A DNA stretch of 64,000 nucleotides from Gemmobacter nectariphilus (GTDB lineage Bacteria; Pseudomonadota; Alphaproteobacteria; Rhodobacterales; Rhodobacteraceae), in NCBI GenBank assembly GCA_020721445.1, contig DYMU01000007.1:1-64000 (forward strand). The letters are read 5' to 3'. The position numbers and the translations under genes were made by a program. Below are positions 2-34,676 of this stretch, in pieces (the first letter of the stretch is position 1; every line of letters starts with the position of its first letter). The notes below the pieces were generated by a model. It did not search any database, was not told where the DNA came from, and was given only the letters and a program-made list of their open reading frames with translations.

Positions 2-487
2 TCCAAGACCCATGATGCGGTGTCACGGGCCAAGACCGAGCTGTGGCACCGCATCCTGACCCACTACCTGCCGCTCTACTTCCCGGAGGCGGACCGGTTC
101 CACCGCAGCTCGCGCACCGACTGGTTCCTGGCCTTCCTCGAGATGTTCCTTTCTCCGCACATGATCAGCGCTATGACCAAGGCGGAGTTCACCAAGGCTG
201 CATGGGAGGTGGTCGGGCGCAAGGTCGAGAAGTCTCTCTTGTTGTCAGACATTTACGAGACGGCGAAGACTTCCGCCGGGCTCCCCGTGTCGCCGGACTC
301 GGACGCCATCCGCATGTTCCGCCTGATAGAAAGCGCCAAGCTCAACGGCCTCGATCCGCAGACCTACATCTCCGACAACCTGGCCCGAATCCACGATCAC
401 ATCGCACCCCGCCTCGCCGAACTGCTCCCGTGGAACCGGAAACCGTTGCCTGCTGGTGCGGAAAACAGGATCGCCGCCTTATACTGA
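2..487 (+). pseudogene. Hybrid transposase remnant: IS110-like segment joined in frame to an IS66-like C-terminal segment
   Basis: Residues up to about ...GLPVSPDSDAIRMFRL (nt ~325) read like an IS110 transposase (TELWHRILTHYLPLYFPEADRFHRSSRTDWFLAFLE). The remainder, IESAKLNGLDPQTYISDNLARI..LAELLPWN, reads like the IS66 C-terminal domain. Frame is open at the window edge. Confidence 0.7.
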
Positions 488-965: not shown

Positions 966-3900
966 ATGCGCAACGATATCCCGTTTGAAAGGCGCGTAGC
1001 TGCAAGTTCGAATCAAATCCGCTATGTAAAGGCGGAAATGGCCGGTACCGGGACTTACATGATCCCAATGGGCCACCTTGTCCGATCTCGCTTGGATCCG
1101 GACAGGCTACGGGCGGCTGCGACGGCCCTGGTCCTTCGGCACGACGCGCTGCGAACGCGCTTCGAGGTCGCCGACGGCGCGATTTTTGCGCTGGTCTCGT
1201 CAACGCCTCATTTTCGGTTTCATGTACATTTGCTGACTGACCCAAGTCTGGAAGCGTTCCGCAAATGGGCGCTTCCGCTGATCTTTGATCATGTCGATCC
1301 GTGCGACGCCGGCTCGCTTGTCAGGATATTGGTGGCCGACCTCGGGGATTGTTGGCGTTTTACAATTGCCGCACATCACGCAATCACTGACGGCTTTTCC
1401 CGTGGCGTGATGAACCGGGAACTCTTGAAAATCTATGCTGGAGAAGAGCTTCCGCCACCGCGATCATATTACGAATTCGCCTCGGCGCCCAAGGCGATAC
1501 TTACACCCGAAGTCGAGGAATTCGTCGCGTCCCTTCCAAACCCGGCCAGAATAGTCGGAGACAGTATCGGACGCGAAGGACCGAACGATGCAGGGCAAAT
1601 AGCTGAACTTGAGTTTGCAGGGCTTGCAGCGTCCTTGCGATTGCTGGGAAAATCAACCGGCGTTTCCAAGTTTGGCATACTTGCGGCCGTTTATGCGCTT
1701 GGCGTCAGGGGATATTGTGGCGAAGCCGGCGTCTCCAGCTTTTTCCAGTCCGAGGGACGGGCCGCGCTTGGCGCTTCAAACTCGGTTGTTGGCCCATTTT
1801 CCCACACATTGCCCCTTGATCTGACGGTAGACCCGGACCAGACCTTTGCCTCGTTGGCCGCCGGTCTTTCAGAGCGCACAAAAAAGGCAGTTGCGCTGGA
1901 AAATGAACCGCTGCTGGATCAGGTTCTGGCACACGGCAAGGCACCAAGCCTCTCGATCAACATGTTTCCGCCAGCCAGCCGGGTCAGGGCCGGAACCCTC
2001 GACATTGGCCCAAGGGAGTTTCTTGATCGGCGCACAGAGTTCGATTTGAACCTGGTCTGGTCGGAAGACGAAAACGTCATGACCGCGCGCGCCTTTTTTG
2101 ATCGGGCACAGCTTACTGCGGAACGTGCGCATCTCTTTCTGAAGTTTCAGGGCAAGATCCTTGATGCTGCAATGCGTGACCCGCAGTTGAGGTGCCATGA
2201 GATTCTGGAGATTGCCCGCCAAGGGGACGAAGTCGTTCTTCCACAGACCTGTGTTGATCCGGCGCCCACTGGACGACTGCACGATCGGTTTTTCGAGACG
2301 GTCGCGCAGTCGCCAGACATGATTGCCGTGATCACCACGAAAGAGCGGATCACTTATCACGACCTTGCACAGCGCGTTCGGCAGGTCGTGGCAGCCCTTC
2401 GACGGGCGGGGGTCGGTGAAGGTGATCGCGTCGCGATCCTGGCCCAGCGTGACCCCGCTCTCGCTGTTGCCATGCTTGGCGTGTCCGCCAGCGGGGCCTC
2501 TTTTGCCGTGATCGACGCGACCTATCCGGTCGAACGGATCCGATGGATGATCAAGCGACTGGGCGGCCGTTTCCTGATTGAGGCCGGCGCGTCGCTGCCC
2601 GAAGACATTCGAGGTGAAATCACCGTTGTTGCGCCTGACAGCGGGCAGATGCCTGACGGCGCAATCGAAAGCGGCCCGGCACGATCGGAAGCCTGTCACA
2701 TGTTCACCTCTGGCACGACAGGTCAGCCGAAGCTTATCACGCACCCGGACACTACGTTGCAGCGATTTGTGGTGTGGCAGGCCAACATGCTGGACCTGCC
2801 CCAGCGCATCTGCACCGTCATGATGGCTGGTCTGGGGCATGATCCCACACTGCGCGACGTTTTCTTGCCGCTTTCGCACGGCGGAAGGATCGCGATACCC
2901 ACACCTTGCGAGATGGCACAGCCCAAGGCGTTGCGCGCCTTGCTGTTGCGGGCCGAATGCAACGTGGTGCGGTTCAGCCCCACTACCGCCCGACTTCTGA
3001 CGGCGGGAATGGAGAAACCCGAGGGTCTTGGAACATTGCGGGCGATCTTTTGGGGCGGCGAGAGACTTCCGCATTCCGAGGTGCGCAGATGGCAGGGGCT
3101 TACCCCAGCGGCGCGGCAGTTCAACATTTTCGGCACCACGGAAACCCCGCAGGCCTTTCTTTACTATGAAATCGAGCCGTCGGCGAACTGGTCACGGAGT
3201 ATTCCCCTTGGACGCCCCTTGCCGTGGACCGGGGTTCGTCTGGTCGATGATCAGGGCGCGTCGATCGGCAGCGGCGAAGTCGGCGAGATCGTGGCCGAAC
3301 TTGCCGATCCCGTCGCGGGCGTTCAAACGAAGGTCGCACTTGTTGGAACGAAATCTGCTTGTCAGCATTTCACGGGCGATTTGGGTTATCATATGCCTGA
3401 CGGGCAGATCTATTTCGTCGGACGTCGTGATGGCCAGGTGAAAATCAACGGGTTCCGCGTCGAACTTGGCGAGATCGAGGCAACGGCCGAAGCGGTGCAG
3501 GGGGCCGATCGCGCCTATGCGGTGATTTCCGAGGACAGGTTGCTGCTCTTTGTCGAGGCAAGGATGGGCGGGGTCACCGAGCGAAGCCTGAGGGTCGTCC
3601 TTGCCAGAACGCTGCCGGGTTATATGGTGCCTGCACAGATCGTCGTGATCGACAGGTTTCCAAGCAGGCCAAACGGAAAGGTTGACGGGCCAGCGCTACT
3701 GGCCCTGCTACAGTCGCGGGCTGCCATCACAGTGGCCGCTGCCGCCGCACAGCTTCTGGGGCCGGCGGAACAGCTTCTCGCCGAGATATTTTCCAAGCGC
3801 ACGGGTCGCAGCGGGGTTGGCCCGGACGACACACTGGAGGATCTTGGCGCAGACAGCCTGACGACGATCGAGGTCAGGCTTGAGCTGGAAAAAAGCGGTT

Positions 3901-5036
3901 TCGATCTGCCGGATGACTGGCAATTCATGGCGATCTCTGAACTGGCCGGGTTTCGAAAGCCACAAGACAGACCTGTGCGACTGTGGGACCGGCTGCGCGC
4001 GTCCAGCCGCATGGAGATCTTCATCCTCATCCGGGCGCTGGCGATTGTGGCAGTGGTGTTTTTTCATAGCGGATACGGCTGGACCGGAGGGGCCTCGATC
4101 ACGCTTTTTGTTCTGGCAGGGTTTTCTTTTGCGCAACTGCAACTTGTGGCTATCGCGCAGGATGATCACTCGGGGCGGGTGTGGGCTCTGATTGGCCGCC
4201 TGTTTGTGCCGCTTGTGCCGATGACACTTCTCTATCTGGGGATCAACGAATATCGGGGCTTGGAGACCCATCCCGCGTCATTGTTTCTTTACCGCAATCT
4301 TGTCGCTGTGACCGATGCGGTGGTCGTGGGAAAGACGGTTTCTGATATCGGCATGTCATGGCTTTGGTTCCTGCACGTCTATATTCAGGTTTTCGTCTTG
4401 ATCGGGCTGCTGCTAAGTTTCCCGGCCCCGCGTCGGCAATTGCGAACTGACGCTTGGCGCGCCATCATGGCCTTTTTCATCATGGTGGAAGCTGTGGGTC
4501 TGTTGGCGGTGGTCCTGTTTGCCGAAGGGCCACGCGACATGGTTGAAGCCGCGCGGCTGCTTCACCAGTCGCCTGTAGCAATCTTGCCATTCCTTGTGAT
4601 CGGCGCGATCGTCGCTTTGGGCAAAACGAAAAAACGGCGGATCATCAGTCTCGGTACAGCGCTGCTTCATTTTGCGCTTGTCTACGTTCTTTATGCGGAT
4701 CATCGCGAAGTCTGGTGGATCTTTGCGCTCGCCGCCTGCGCGTTTTTCCCACATGTGACATTGCCGGTCGCTGTGGCGCGGCCCGTGATCACCGTCTCGG
4801 CCTACTCGCTGATGATCTATCTGGCACATCCTTTGGCCTACCTTGTATTCTATAAATACTTTGGCGGAGACGGGCTGATTGGCGTTGTCGGCGTGTTCTT
4901 TCAAATCGGCACAGGGATATGCTTGGGCATCGTCGCAAGGCACGTTCTTGGTGTGATCGGGGTCAATCGTCTGTCGAGCCTGCCAGTGACGTTCTTTCCA
5001 TCCCGAAGCCCGGTCCCGTCACTGAAAGAAGGGTGA
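966..5036 (+). CDS. Single-module NRPS-like protein (condensation-adenylation-PCP) fused to a C-terminal acyltransferase-3-like membrane domain
   Basis: C-domain HHAITDG; A-domain MFTSGTTGQPK, TGDLGY, GRRDGQVKINGFRVELGEIEA, NGKVDG; PCP LEDLGADSLTTIE; then a multi-TM region beginning RMEIFILIRALAIVAVVFFHSG and ending LSLMIYLAHPLAYLVFY-like, typical of AT3 proteins. Confidence 0.88.
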   Translation: MRNDIPFERRVAASSNQIRYVKAEMAGTGTYMIPMGHLVRSRLDPDRLRAAATALVLRHDALRTRFEVADGAIFALVSSTPHFRFHVHLLTDPSLEAFRKWALPLIFDHVDPCDAGSLVRILVADLGDCWRFTIAAHHAITDGFSRGVMNRELLKIYAGEELPPPRSYYEFASAPKAILTPEVEEFVASLPNPARIVGDSIGREGPNDAGQIAELEFAGLAASLRLLGKSTGVSKFGILAAVYALGVRGYCGEAGVSSFFQSEGRAALGASNSVVGPFSHTLPLDLTVDPDQTFASLAAGLSERTKKAVALENEPLLDQVLAHGKAPSLSINMFPPASRVRAGTLDIGPREFLDRRTEFDLNLVWSEDENVMTARAFFDRAQLTAERAHLFLKFQGKILDAAMRDPQLRCHEILEIARQGDEVVLPQTCVDPAPTGRLHDRFFETVAQSPDMIAVITTKERITYHDLAQRVRQVVAALRRAGVGEGDRVAILAQRDPALAVAMLGVSASGASFAVIDATYPVERIRWMIKRLGGRFLIEAGASLPEDIRGEITVVAPDSGQMPDGAIESGPARSEACHMFTSGTTGQPKLITHPDTTLQRFVVWQANMLDLPQRICTVMMAGLGHDPTLRDVFLPLSHGGRIAIPTPCEMAQPKALRALLLRAECNVVRFSPTTARLLTAGMEKPEGLGTLRAIFWGGERLPHSEVRRWQGLTPAARQFNIFGTTETPQAFLYYEIEPSANWSRSIPLGRPLPWTGVRLVDDQGASIGSGEVGEIVAELADPVAGVQTKVALVGTKSACQHFTGDLGYHMPDGQIYFVGRRDGQVKINGFRVELGEIEATAEAVQGADRAYAVISEDRLLLFVEARMGGVTERSLRVVLARTLPGYMVPAQIVVIDRFPSRPNGKVDGPALLALLQSRAAITVAAAAAQLLGPAEQLLAEIFSKRTGRSGVGPDDTLEDLGADSLTTIEVRLELEKSGFDLPDDWQFMAISELAGFRKPQDRPVRLWDRLRASSRMEIFILIRALAIVAVVFFHSGYGWTGGASITLFVLAGFSFAQLQLVAIAQDDHSGRVWALIGRLFVPLVPMTLLYLGINEYRGLETHPASLFLYRNLVAVTDAVVVGKTVSDIGMSWLWFLHVYIQVFVLIGLLLSFPAPRRQLRTDAWRAIMAFFIMVEAVGLLAVVLFAEGPRDMVEAARLLHQSPVAILPFLVIGAIVALGKTKKRRIISLGTALLHFALVYVLYADHREVWWIFALAACAFFPHVTLPVAVARPVITVSAYSLMIYLAHPLAYLVFYKYFGGDGLIGVVGVFFQIGTGICLGIVARHVLGVIGVNRLSSLPVTFFPSRSPVPSLKEG

Positions 5037-9723: not shown

Positions 9724-10593
9724 ATGGATGCGTTACTGAATCAGGCGTTTGCCGGGCTGAGCATGGCCTCGATCCTGCTGATCGTGGGCCTTGGCCTTGC
9801 CATCATCTACGGGTCGATGGGGGTGATCAATCTGGCGCATGGCGAGTTTGTCATGTTGGGCGCCTATGTGGCCTGGGCGATGCAAACCTTTCTGGGGTTC
9901 AGCATTCTGACCAGTCTGCCGCTGATATTTGTGGTGATTGCCTTCGTTGGCTGGCTGGTGGAACGCGGGGTGGTGCACCGACTGTATCGGCGGCCTCTGG
10001 ATACCATCCTGGCCACCTGGGGCATCGGGATCGTGCTGCAACAACTGGTGCGCATGTTCATCGGGCCAGAGTCGCGATTTGTGGCGACGCCATCGCTGCT
10101 TGAGGGAAACACGGTGATCGGTGCGGTGGTGATGTCGAATTACCGCCTGTTCGTGATCGTGTTTGCGCTGGCCGTGCTGGCGGCGACCTGGGCCTTGATG
10201 ACGCGGACCGAGTTTGGAACCCGGCTGCGCGCCGTCATCCAGAACCGCGAAATCTCGGAATGTTACGGGATCCGGGCCGAAAAGGTTTATGCGATGACCT
10301 TTGCCTATGGGGCGGGGCTGGCCGGGGTGGCGGGTGCGCTTTTGACGCCCCTGGTCAGCACCACACCGTCGATGGGCACCTATCTGGTCGTCGATGCCTT
10401 CCTGGTGGTGATCATCGGCGGCGTGGGCAGCCTGATCGGCACCGCCGTGGCGGCGGCTGCGGTGGGCGAGGCGACGGCGCTGTTTTCCATGCTGATGAAC
10501 GACACGCTGGGCCGCATTGCCGTGCTGCTGGCGATCATCCTTCTGATCCGGTTCCGGCCCAATGGCCTGTTTCCGCAAACCATCCGGCGTTGA
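9724..10593 (+). CDS. UrtB/LivH-type ABC transporter permease
   Basis: Branched-chain/urea permease motifs (GLGLAIIYGSMGVINLAHGEFVMLGAY). Confidence 0.88.
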   Translation: MDALLNQAFAGLSMASILLIVGLGLAIIYGSMGVINLAHGEFVMLGAYVAWAMQTFLGFSILTSLPLIFVVIAFVGWLVERGVVHRLYRRPLDTILATWGIGIVLQQLVRMFIGPESRFVATPSLLEGNTVIGAVVMSNYRLFVIVFALAVLAATWALMTRTEFGTRLRAVIQNREISECYGIRAEKVYAMTFAYGAGLAGVAGALLTPLVSTTPSMGTYLVVDAFLVVIIGGVGSLIGTAVAAAAVGEATALFSMLMNDTLGRIAVLLAIILLIRFRPNGLFPQTIRR

Positions 10594-29513: not shown

Positions 29514-29774
29514 TCAGGCTCGGTTTCCGGCGGCCAACATCTCGGCAAGATAGGTGACGGCTTTCGCCGGAGTGGCAAGCCGAGGGTAATCGGTCTCTGG
29601 AATCGGCAGACCGAAACGCTTGTGCAGCGCACTGACGAGGTTCAGGAAATCCATCGAGTCAAGGCCGAGGTCAGTCTGCATGTGATCGTCGTCGCCAATG
29701 GTCGCGGCGTCAAGGTCCGGCGCGACAGCGGTCAGATCGGTGATGAAGGCGGCGCGAAGGTCGGTCGGGGTCAT
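29514..29774 (-). CDS. Acyl carrier protein
   Basis: 86 aa, phosphopantetheine site DLGLDSMDFLNLVSAL. Confidence 0.88.
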   Translation of the reverse strand: MTPTDLRAAFITDLTAVAPDLDAATIGDDDHMQTDLGLDSMDFLNLVSALHKRFGLPIPETDYPRLATPAKAVTYLAEMLAAGNRA

Positions 29775-30967
29775 GGGATTGCGGGCTCCTGCAAGAGACG
29801 GTCAATTTCGGACAGAAACATCGCGCCGCGGCGGCCGTCGCTGACCCGGTGATCGGCGGCAAGGCTGACGGTCACCGCAAGGCGCGGCTGAACGGTGCCG
29901 ACATGGACCATGGGTTTCAGACGCGGCGCGCCAAAGCCGACCAGCGCCACCTGCGGCGGGTAGATTACCCCGATCAGGGCATCCACGCCGGTTTCGCCAA
30001 GCGAGGAGATCGTGATCGTGCCTTGCGTGATCTCGCTGTTGCGCAAGCGCCCGGCCCGGGTGCGGGCGACGATGTCGCGCATGGCCTGCATGATGGCGTC
30101 GGGGTCCATTACCTGCGCCTCCAGGATCGCCGGCGCGATCAGCCCGCCGCCCCGCATCGCAATGGCAAGCCCGCAATGGATGACTGCGGAGGGGGTATAG
30201 GGATGAGCCTCATGGCGGCCATTCAGTTCGGGCACTTTGGCCAGTGCCTTCACGGTGGCGTGGACAAGAAGCGCACCCATCAGCAGCCGTTGGTCCGGCG
30301 TGCGACCGGCGTTAAGGGCGGCAAGCCGGTCTTGCGCCGACTGTAGATCAATCTCATGCGTCAGGTAATAATGCGGAATCTCTCGCTTGGCACGGGTCAT
30401 GGCGGCGGCAATGGCGCGGCGCATCTCGGCCATGTCCAGGCCGGGCTTGCCCTTCGGGCCGCCTTGCGCGACAGGCGTCGGTGCGGTCGAGACATGGCGC
30501 TCGACATCGGACAGAAGGATCGCGCCACCCGGACCCGAACCCGCAACCGCCCTAAGCCCGATCCCCAGCTCGACCGCGCGCGCCCGTGCGGCGGGCGAGG
30601 CAAGGACGGTGTCACCGATGGCCGCGGGTGCCGGAACGGCGGGCGGCGGAACGGGGGGTGGCGGCGCGGCAATGCAGGGCGCTGCAACAGCAGGCGCGGC
30701 TTGCACCGCGGGCGCGCTGACCCCCACATCCTCTGCCGCACCCAACCGTGCCAGCGGCGCGCCAACAGGCAGCGTCTGGCCCGGTTCGGCCAGCAACGCG
30801 CCAATCTCGCCCGCCTCGAAGATCTCGATCTCGATCGCGCCCTTCTGGGTCTCGACGACCGCGACGATATCGCCCTTGGCCACCTTGTCGCCGGGCCCTA
30901 CCAGCCATTCGACCAGCTTGCCTTCCTCCATGTCCGCGCCAAGCGACGGCATTGTGAAGACGCTCAT
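29771..30967 (-). CDS. Dihydrolipoamide acyltransferase (E2) of a 2-oxoacid dehydrogenase
   Basis: Lipoyl site [17 protein letters not shown]3/E1-binding segment, C-terminal catalytic [17 protein letters not shown]. Confidence 0.9.
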
Positions 30968-32955
30968 GGCCTCACCCCCGGCAGGGCCTTCACGGCAGCG
31001 ATGATATCGGCGACCTGCGGCAAGGCGGCGGTTTCAAGGTGCTTCGGATAAGGCACCGGTACCTCGGCGGAACAGACCCGGGCCACCGGCGCGTCCAGAT
31101 GCCAGAAGCAGGCCTCTTGCACCCGCGCGGCAATCTCGGCCGACAGCGATCCGGTGCGCCAGCCCTCGTCCACCACCACAGCGCGATGGGTGCGCGAAAC
31201 CGATGCCATGATCGTCGCGTCATCCAAGGGGCGCAGCGAGCGAAGGTCGATCACCTCGGCCTCGATCCCGTCCTTTGCCAGTGCCTCGGCGGCCTCCAGT
31301 GCCTTCCACAGCGAGTAGGACCATGCGATCAGCGTCACGTCGCGCCCGGCCCGTCGGATCATCGCGCGGTCGATGTCCACCGCGCCTGCGTTCCCGGCGA
31401 TCTTGCCAGTCATGTTGTAAAGCATGACATGTTCCAGAATGATCACCGGGTCGGGGTCGGCCAGCGCGGTCGCCAACATGCCCCGCGCGTCTTCCAGCGT
31501 GGCGGGGGCAACGACGCGCAGGCCGGGGATGTGGGCAAAGAACGCCTCCAGAGAATGAGAGTGCTGCGCCGCCAGTTGCCGCCCCGCCCCGGTCGCCATG
31601 CGGATCACCAGCGGCACGCCGAACTGTCCTGCGGACATATGCCGGATCGTGGCGGCGGTGTTCAAAATCTGGTCCAGCGCCAGAAGCGAAAAGTTGACGG
31701 TCATGATCTCGACGATCGGGCGCATTCCCACCAGCGCCGCACCGATTCCGGCCCCGGTGAAGGCGGATTCGGACAGCGGCGTGTCGCGGATGCGGTCGGG
31801 GCCGAACTCTTTCAAAAGCCCCATCGAGACCGCATAACAGCCACCATAGGCGCCGATATCCTCGCCCATAATGAACACGCGATCATCGCGCAGTAGCGCT
31901 TCGGTGATCGCGGCGCGGCAGCAGTCGCGATAGGTGCTGTCCGACAAAGTGTCGGGCGGCAAGGCTTCGGGCGCGGCGGGCCGGGTCTCGGCGACCACAT
32001 GGCGCAACAGGTCCGACGTCTGCTCCCACGGGGCCTGTTCGCTTGCGGCGACGGCGTTGCGAAGCTGCGCTTCGACCTCGGCTTCAATGGCGTCAACCTC
32101 GGCCTTATGCATCAGGTTGTTGGCCAGAAGCCAGCCTTGAAACCGGGTGATGGGCGAGCGTTTGCGCCATTCCGCGACCTCGGCCTTGTCGCGATACTTC
32201 TCGGCGTCGAACATCGAATGCGGCCGGGTGCGATAGGTTCGGCATTCCAGAAACCGGGGGCCGCCGCCCGTACGGATTTCCTCAACCAGACGGTGCGCGG
32301 CGGCTTCGACCGCGACCACATCGTTTCCATCAACGCTTTCGGCAGGCATGCCGTAGCTGGCGGCGCGAGGCACGAAATCGGTGTTGGCCTGCACGCGCGC
32401 AACTGCCGAACCCATAGCATAAAGATTGTTTTCCAGCACAAAGAGCACCGGCAGTTTCCAAAGTGCGGCTAGGTTCATCGCTTCGTGAAATTCACCTTCC
32501 GCCAGCGCGCCATCGCCGAAAAAGCAGGCCGTCACCCGGTCTTTACCCTGCATCTTGTCGCCAAGGCCAAGGCCCACCGCCAGCGGCAGGCCACCCCCCA
32601 CAATGGCGTTGCCGCCGTAAAGATTGGTCTCGGCGTCAAACAGATGCATCGACCCGCCACGCCCGCCCGCGCAGCCGGTGGCCTTGCCGTACATCTCGGC
32701 CAGCGCCGATTCCATGCTCATGCCGCGGGCCAGCGCATGGCCATGCTCGCGGTAGGTCGAAACCACACGGTCGCGCTGCTCCAGCGCCGCCGAAACGCCA
32801 ACGGCCACCGCCTCTTCGCCATCGTAAAGATGCAGGAAACCGCGGATCTTTTCCTGCGTATAAAGCTCGAAGCATTTTTCCTCAAATCTGCGGATGCGGA
32901 TCATGCCACGCAACAGGTCGCTGACATGGGCGTGGCTCAGCTTCACCTTGCTCAT
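30964..32955 (-). CDS. 2-oxoacid dehydrogenase E1, alpha and beta subunits fused in one polypeptide
   Basis: N-terminal E1 alpha ([62 protein letters not shown]) followed by E1 beta ([47 protein letters not shown]). Confidence 0.9.
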
Positions 32956-34676
32956 CGTCCATCCCCTTCCAGTGTGGACAGATCGCCTTCGGGCAGCCCA
33001 AGCTCACGGGCGCGCAAAAGCCGCCGCATGATCTTGCCGGACCGTGTGCGGGGCAGGCTGTCACGAAAGACGATCTCGCGGGGCGAAACGGCGGGGCCGA
33101 GGCGCTTTCTGGCATGGCCGCGCAATTCGCGTTCCAGCGCCTCGCCCGCCGTGAACCCGGCCTTGAGGGTGACGAAGGCCTTGACCACCTCGCCCGCCGT
33201 TTCATCCGGGATGCCGATCACGGCGGCCTCGGCAACCGCAGGGTGCTCAATCAGCGCGCTTTCCACCTCGAACGGGCCGATTAGATGGCCAGAGGACTTG
33301 ATCAGATCATCGGCACGACCGACAAACCAGAAATACCCATCACTGTCGCGCATCGCGAGATCGCCCGTCAGATACCAGCCGCCGACAAAGCATTTGGCGT
33401 AGCGCTCGGGCTGGCCCAGATAGGCCCGCATCATCGAGGGCCAGCCGGGGCGAAGCGCCAGTTCGCCGATCTGTCCGGCGGCGGCTTCCTTCACCGTTCC
33501 GTCCTCGCGGGTCACAATGCCAGCCTCGACACCGGGCAAAGTCTTGCCCATGGCACCCGGTTTGATGTCCATGTCGGCGGTATTGGCGATCATGATGCCG
33601 CCGGTTTCGGACTGCCACCAGTTGTCATGGAACGGCAGGCCAAAGACCGATTGCCCCCAGATCACGCATTCGGCGTTCAAGGGTTCGCCCACCGATGCCA
33701 GAAACCGCAAAGCCGAGAAATCGTGCCCCTTGGTCGCCTCGTTCCCTGCCCGCATCATCATCCGGATCGCGGTTGGAGCGGTGTACCAGACCTGCACCTT
33801 TTCTCGCTCAAGGATGGAATACCAGCGTTCCAGGTCGAAGTCGGCCTCGTCGACCACCATGGTCACCCGGTTGCACAAGGGCGAGATGACGCCATAGCTC
33901 ATTCCCGTGACCCAGCCGGGATCGGCGGTGCACCAGTAGATGTCGCCGGGCCGCAGGTCGAGTGCCAGACGCCCGGTTTCGGCGTGGGCAACCACCGCCT
34001 CATGCACATGCACGACGCCTTTTGGCAGCCCGGTGGTGCCAGAGGTGAAATGCAACAGCGCCATGTCCTCGGGCATTGTCCTTACGGTGTCAAAACGCGG
34101 GGCCGCCGCCGCCATCGCAGGACCAAGGGCGACGCAGCCGTCAGGGGCCGCATCGCCAATGATCAGGACAAGCCTTAGCGCGGGCATTTGCGCCCGCCAC
34201 TCGGCAACCTTGCGGCGATAATTCGCTTCGGTGGTGACAAGAACGCTGGCCCCGCCGATCTCCATCCGGGCGCGGACGGGTTCGGGGCCGAACGCGGCGA
34301 AGAGCGGGCTGACAACGACGCCTGCCTTCATGGCACCCAGCGTGGCCACGTAAAGCGCGGGTACCCGGCCCGAAAGAAGGTACAGCCGCTCTCCTGCATC
34401 GATGCCATGTGCGCGCAGCACATTTGCAAACCGTGCAGCATCGGCGGCCAATTCGGCGTAGCTCAACACCTGCCGCTCGCCTTCCCGGCCCAGCCAGATC
34501 AGCGCTGCTTGTGACCCATGACCCGCTGCAACATGCCGGTCCACGGCCTCATGCGCGATGTTCAGCCCGCCATCGGGCAAGCCTTTCAGCCGCGCCCGGG
34601 CTGCGTCCCAGCCGGTGGCAAGCGAAAGGGTGTCAGAGTGTGCAACTGGTTTCCGTATCACTGCGTGAGTCATCAT
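32952..34676 (-). CDS. Acetyl-CoA synthetase-like acyl-AMP ligase
   Basis: [68 protein letters not shown]. Confidence 0.9.

Follow-up and report, generated by a model that had tools for sequence, protein, structure and literature searches.

The stretch of DNA analyzed here (the window) comprises 64,000 nucleotides, positions 1 to 64,000 of contig DYMU01000007.1 in the Gemmobacter nectariphilus assembly GCA_020721445.1. It starts at base 1 of the contig, within a 3.07-Mb Rhodobacteraceae genome, and carries at positions 966–5036 of the forward strand a single open reading frame with an ATG start codon. The encoded protein of 1356 amino acids (aa), termed P0001, combines a nonribosomal peptide synthetase (NRPS) module, composed of condensation (C), adenylation (A) and peptidyl carrier protein (PCP) domains, with a C-terminal membrane domain of the acyltransferase-3 (AT3) type.

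Pfam matches were judged against the curated cut-offs. All four families named in an earlier note on this DNA scored above them, in the order Condensation, AMP-binding, PP-binding, Acyl_transf_3. The C domain occupies residues 11–413 (positions 996–2204, forward strand as for all domains of the gene; PF00668, E 9e-25) and contains HHAITDG at residues 137–143. The NRPS-type A domain spans residues 442–905 (2289–3680), with a PF00501 match over residues 442–776 (E 2e-54) and an AMP-binding_C match (PF13193, residues 836–905) below its Pfam cut-off. The carrier domain (residues 937–989; 3774–3932; PF00550, E 1e-6) contains the sequence LGADSL with the attachment residue Ser964. The AT3 domain (residues 1021–1321; 4026–4928) matched PF01757 with 44.0 bits against a cut-off of 31 (E 2e-11), so that the C-terminal region does score as AT3. 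Intact motifs were found along the whole protein (HHAITDG at 137, TSGTTG at 581, NGKVD at 903, GADSL with Ser964, and R1023-x10-H1034), and the hydropathy profile predicted nine transmembrane segments after residue 1018 plus a probable tenth at about 1275–1296. No thioesterase, reductase or terminal C release domain was detected by Pfam in P0001, whose C-terminal end is formed by AT3 instead. These results bear out the layout described in the earlier note, namely a C, A and PCP protein that ends in an AT3-like multi-transmembrane domain and not in a thioesterase or reductase. By its predicted C, A and carrier domains P0001 is an NRPS module, yet one devoid of a known release domain.

The membrane part is classified as AT3 by its Pfam match, predicted topology and Rx10H motif, but it lacks two motifs of AT3s that use coenzyme A (CoA). 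The conserved motifs of the transmembrane acyltransferases (TmATs) include DxxR and a Tyr in transmembrane helix 9 (TMH9), and most superfamily members keep the first Arg of the RxxR motif (PMC12423673). P0001 resembles the AT3/TmAT proteins OafB, OatA and Oac in its PF01757 domain, its approximately 10 transmembrane segments, R-x10-H in TMH1 and S-x3-Y in TMH9 (R1023, H1034 and Y1285 are all kept). It differs from them in the absence of DxxR and of the TMH3 RxxR, and in the N-terminal fusion of a carrier and an NRPS module; published fusion partners of AT3 include SGNH, alanine/serine racemase and NRF domains. In a modeling study of OafB, Arg74 of RxxR and Arg14 contact the 3′-phosphate of CoA (PMC9833829). 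Phosphopantetheine attached to a carrier has no such 3′-phosphate.

The distribution of such fusions was examined in genome surveys, conducted on samples (1439 genomes). A search with one profile covering carrier plus AT3 in 296 Rhodobacteraceae genomes, one per genus, detected carrier-AT3 proteins in 13 of them. Beyond three genes with the full C-A-PCP-AT3 layout, these were A-PCP-AT3 proteins of about 830–950 aa and one split version. A few more carrier-AT3 proteins were found elsewhere in the class and phylum genome samples, and a search of plasmid proteins added representatives from Sinorhizobium, Rhizobium, Leisingera, Paracoccus, Shinella, Phyllobacterium, Mycolicibacterium and Rhodococcus. 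The A-PCP-AT3 proteins, whose hosts are Alphaproteobacteria, Mycolicibacterium and Rhodococcus, are mostly annotated as “AMP-binding protein”. A maximum-likelihood tree placed 30 fused carrier-fed AT3 domains and 1 split one together in a single group (100/98) and separated them from 19 stand-alone AT3s drawn from related genomes. A single origin of the four C-A-PCP-AT3 members within this group is compatible with the tree, though not firm (61/89). The new observation is that the AT3 of P0001 lies within a well-supported clade of carrier-fused AT3s, in which the carrier-AT3 fusion is old and clade-wide.

The (R/K)x10H motif is present in 36/36 carrier-fused members. DxxR was found in none of the 36, compared to 15 of 19 stand-alone AT3s, and RxxR at the aligned place in TMH3 was likewise found in none, compared to 12/19 (strict) or 16/21 (loose) in the stand-alone set, a small control (19–21 sequences) taken from related genomes. 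The sole match to the RxxR pattern among fused members, RTGRI in the Albibacillus protein (L053), lies approximately 8 residues upstream of the aligned site. Because the 36 sequences include near-copies, they do not represent 36 independent losses; the pattern could be accounted for by a single loss basal to the clade. In the split version (L083:5616–8271, genome G236), an A protein ending in the carrier motif GGDSL overlaps a separate AT3 gene, which supports a partnership between carrier and AT3; glycosyltransferase genes and a sulfotransferase gene are part of the same locus.

The three further C-A-PCP-AT3 genes, which share no common neighbors, originate from Albibacillus kandeliae (full-length copy, loci L035/L037; 57% identity to P0001), genome G218 (full-length copy, locus L038; 41–42% identity) and plasmid unnamed1 of Pseudorhodobacter turbinis (28% identity; frameshift between locus positions 10044 and 10089). 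The metagenome-assembled genome Clear-D3 (L036:10001–10177) contains only a 63-residue relic of the C-domain N-terminus, placed beside a response regulator gene. In a phage collection, the matches listed displayed only generic NRPS or AMP-binding similarity, with no more than 57% of the query covered. At its 3′ end, the Albibacillus gene overlaps by 4 bases a gene encoding a 354-aa ApbA/dehydrogenase-like protein (L037:6830–7894). This gene was considered as a conserved neighbor and rejected, as the genome containing the window holds just a weak 62-residue match.

Sequence comparison of the C domains showed that the HHA..DG core and surrounding positions are invariant in all four relatives, including the one at 27% identity, which argues for a working C domain. 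Matches to the Protein Data Bank (PDB) did not point to a clear subtype.

The specificity residues of the A domain (D626, P627, R630, R669, I694, W696, I721, Q729, A730 and K905) give the code DPRRIWIQAK, positions 1–9 of which were read from an alignment and the tenth (Lys905) from the NGKVD motif. D626 corresponds to the Asp at position 235 expected of an A domain of the amino-acid type. The codes of the relatives are DPRRIWVQAK, DPRHVWLQAK and DMRHISFQAK, so that D, R and the terminal AK are common to all four, with H at position 278 in two. Applied to other loci, the same extraction yielded codes similar to those given in textbooks for Gly, Ser and beta-Ala. Among published codes, that of Lys2 (L-aminoadipate, DPRHFVMRAK) is presumably the closest; this string was not found in the open-access literature, and the likeness is used as a lead only. 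Lys2 activates the distal carboxylate of its substrate. TIGR03443 was among the top NCBIfam matches to P0001, under its cut-off. An acidic amino acid, or one with a second carboxylate, is our guess at the substrate, somewhat less likely than not to be correct.

The closest PDB matches of the carrier part are fatty-acid acyl carrier proteins (ACPs), and the carrier of P0001 is accordingly described as ACP-like, as judged by similarity. Only one phosphopantetheinyl transferase (PPTase), of AcpS size, was detected in the genome containing the window, and one (AcpS) in each of the two genomes with intact orthologs; no Sfp-type PPTase was found in these three genomes in a search by one Pfam family. 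That this search is able to find second enzymes is indicated by G032, another family member, in which a second PPTase was detected. The module thus has both an attachment residue (Ser964) and a candidate activating enzyme, AcpS, whose role as activator is predicted.

The A domain of P0001 scored 118–624 bits against NRPS A domains and its orthologs, compared to 35–78 bits against the heads of A-PCP-AT3 proteins, which look acid-ligase-like (YSYGLSxxxSHL, MYGQTEA). Because the A heads differ to this extent, two types of loading head have apparently been joined to a carrier-AT3 unit. The shorter proteins share with P0001 this unit and one AT3 clade, and differ in their distant acid-ligase-like A head and in the lack of a C domain. 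A-PCP-AT3 genes lie directly beside Fe(3+) ABC transporter genes in Mycolicibacterium chubuense, M. rufum and M. crocinum (L126, L130 and L131, respectively), Rhodococcus gordoniae (L132) and Pararhizobium (L128), with both transcribed in the same direction in the four actinobacterial plasmids and divergently in Pararhizobium; an iron link of the shorter family is possible. On a plasmid of Rhizobium sp. Kim5 (L127:6546–14181), genes for an AAA ATPase, a YcaO-like protein and a TfuA-like protein come after the A-PCP-AT3 gene, an arrangement like that of clusters for ribosomally synthesized and post-translationally modified peptides (RiPP-type clusters). In two Leisingera plasmids (L124 and L135) the A-PCP-AT3 gene is convergent with a gene for a pyridoxal phosphate-dependent aminotransferase, with an overlap of a few bases in both.

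The gene is located close to a contig end, at which an open reading frame with an IS66 transposase C-terminal element (positions 20–487, forward strand; PF13817) represents an insertion-sequence remnant; the true upstream context of the C-A-PCP-AT3 gene is therefore lost. The G+C content at third codon positions (GC3) of the gene is 0.65 (0.59 in the C-domain part), compared to a window median of 0.77, and the gene is present in only 1 of 16 genomes of the genus. The C-A-PCP-AT3 protein is rare and horizontally spread in bacteria. P0001 is the sole NRPS of its genome, in which other matches to it are only AMP-ligase-like, and three carrier proteins exist there besides its own carrier. As the earlier note had stated, the window showed no PPTase, no MbtH (motif scan only) and no second NRPS. 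The first reading needs correction in that a stand-alone carrier protein does lie in the window (29514–29774, reverse strand). It adjoins a cassette on the same strand (29771–34676) encoding an AMP-ligase, a fused E1 and a lipoyl E2. This cassette (29.5–34.7 kb, with the carrier protein) was considered as a source of the acyl donor for the NRPS, but no link was found. With an approximate query (88 residues, 89% to the window protein), a close homolog of the fused E1 was identified in genome G681 of the genus and none in the ortholog genomes G093 and G218.

Among known systems, DltA-DltC-DltB (D-alanylation) and AlmE/AlmF/AlmG (Vibrio lipid A glycylation) use an adenylate-forming enzyme that loads an ACP-like carrier, from which a membrane acyltransferase takes the group; for P0001 this is a proposal, in which the likeness holds at the domain level and the carrier-to-AT3 transfer is predicted. 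Unlike these systems, P0001 is one polypeptide, with AT3 instead of MBOAT (DltB) or LPLAT (AlmG), an added C domain and another A code. The C-A-PCP modules of ordinary NRPSs (linear gramicidin, tyrocidine, EntF) have the same domain order and core motifs, whereas P0001 has no partner NRPS, thioesterase or reductase, contains an ACP-like carrier, is accompanied by AcpS as the only PPTase detected and ends in AT3. In epsilon-poly-L-lysine synthetase (Pls), too, transmembrane segments are joined to A and carrier domains. In Pls, C-like tandem domains lie between these segments, whereas the transmembrane part of P0001 is AT3 and its only C domain is N-terminal. A search of the open-access literature yielded no paper that describes an NRPS-AT3 or A-PCP-AT3 fusion, and a review of aminolipids mentions no NRPS. 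The earlier note, which recognized no characterized system with this layout, agrees with that search.

We propose, with an even chance of being correct, that P0001 is a self-contained, membrane-anchored one-module synthetase and transferase in which the phosphopantetheine arm of the carrier takes the place of CoA. AcpS would set phosphopantetheine on Ser964, and the A domain would adenylate an amino acid, which may bear a second carboxylate, before loading it onto the carrier. The C domain would then N-acylate the amine from acyl-ACP or acyl-CoA, yielding an N-acyl-aminoacyl-S-PCP; the acyl group would be supplied in trans, the protein having no upstream carrier and the genome no other NRPS. 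Finally, the carrier arm would enter the AT3 pore from the cytoplasm, in the position of CoA, and the acyl group would be passed on close to His1034. It would be received by the hydroxyl or amine of an acceptor located in the membrane, on the surface or exported. The parts are seen in the sequence; their order is inferred. Replacement of CoA by the carrier is supported by the fusion shared across the clade, by the lost motif and by the split operon. The wider statement, that this AT3 clade swapped CoA for a fused carrier donor and dropped RxxR, and that in its C-A-PCP-AT3 branch, where a full NRPS module loads the carrier, a single polypeptide forms an N-acyl-aminoacyl group in the cytoplasm and delivers it to an extracytoplasmic acceptor, with transmembrane acyl transfer as the release step of the NRPS, we hold at slightly less than an even chance. 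The suggestion in the earlier note that a PCP-bound group is handed to a membrane acyltransferase gains from the carrier-fused clade, the loss of RxxR and the retention of Rx10H; as to the group and its acceptor (lipid, glycan or small molecule), no conserved neighbor gives an indication of either.

Several observations weigh against this proposal. R1078 of P0001 aligns to the second Arg of RxxR in a profile alignment (Lys in the two intact orthologs), and since both R1078 and R1023 are kept, some CoA-like phosphate contact may be left in P0001. The split L083 AT3 keeps RFAR, so that carrier use need not go together with RxxR loss. The closest PDB match of the C domain is TycC, not a lipo-initiation C domain, and no neighbor gene common to the four C-A-PCP-AT3 loci was found. 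An AlphaFold model of the PCP-AT3 part, built with two sequences, reached a mean pLDDT of 46, with the carrier part alone credible. The retained Arg residues, together with a PF01757 score above the cut-off, would also suit a merely tethered, acetyl-CoA-dependent AT3 that acylates the NRPS product or another acceptor while the carrier-bound product exits otherwise. However, the absence of DxxR and RxxR, typical of ordinary AT3s, from every carrier-fused member examined and the age and clade-wide extent of the fusion render this very unlikely.

An amino acid could also be loaded free and esterified by AT3 onto a surface or lipid acceptor without N-acylation, the C domain being a docking or vestigial part. 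Dlt and Alm systems move bare aminoacyl groups (PMC3783018) and a C domain is absent from the A-PCP-AT3 relatives, but the invariant HHxxxDG core and nearby positions suggest a working domain, and we consider this alternative unlikely. It is quite unlikely that AT3 serves as an exporter or hydrolytic release domain, with water or a small alcohol as acceptor and a secreted N-acyl amino acid as product: Rx10H is kept as in true acyltransferases, and the targets of known AT3s are carbohydrates or other acceptors (PMC9558356), even though product release would require this single gene, which is an orphan with no glycan or lipid neighbors common to the four hosts and encodes no thioesterase or reductase domain. 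Finally, the deviating GC3, the sporadic occurrence in the genus, the IS66 remnant upstream, the frameshifted P. turbinis copy and the relic in Clear-D3 could signify a drifting or decaying mobile gene with no stable function in its host. This is hardly credible for an intact frame of 1356 codons with every active-site motif present, and the persistence of intact copies in two other genomes (57% and 41% identity) implies long-term selection.

If the carrier does replace CoA in P0001, transmembrane acyl transfer would constitute a new ending of an NRPS chain, substituting for a thioesterase or reductase, and AT3 would provide a third membrane-acyltransferase route, after MBOAT/DltB and LPLAT/AlmG, by which a carrier-bound acyl group reaches the cell surface. 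The clade also offers a direct test of the role of RxxR in AT3s, as a natural clade lacking this motif should not need CoA. Since the shorter A-PCP-AT3 proteins are widespread among genera and carry no annotation beyond AMP-binding protein, any surface or metabolite modifications that they make may have been overlooked.

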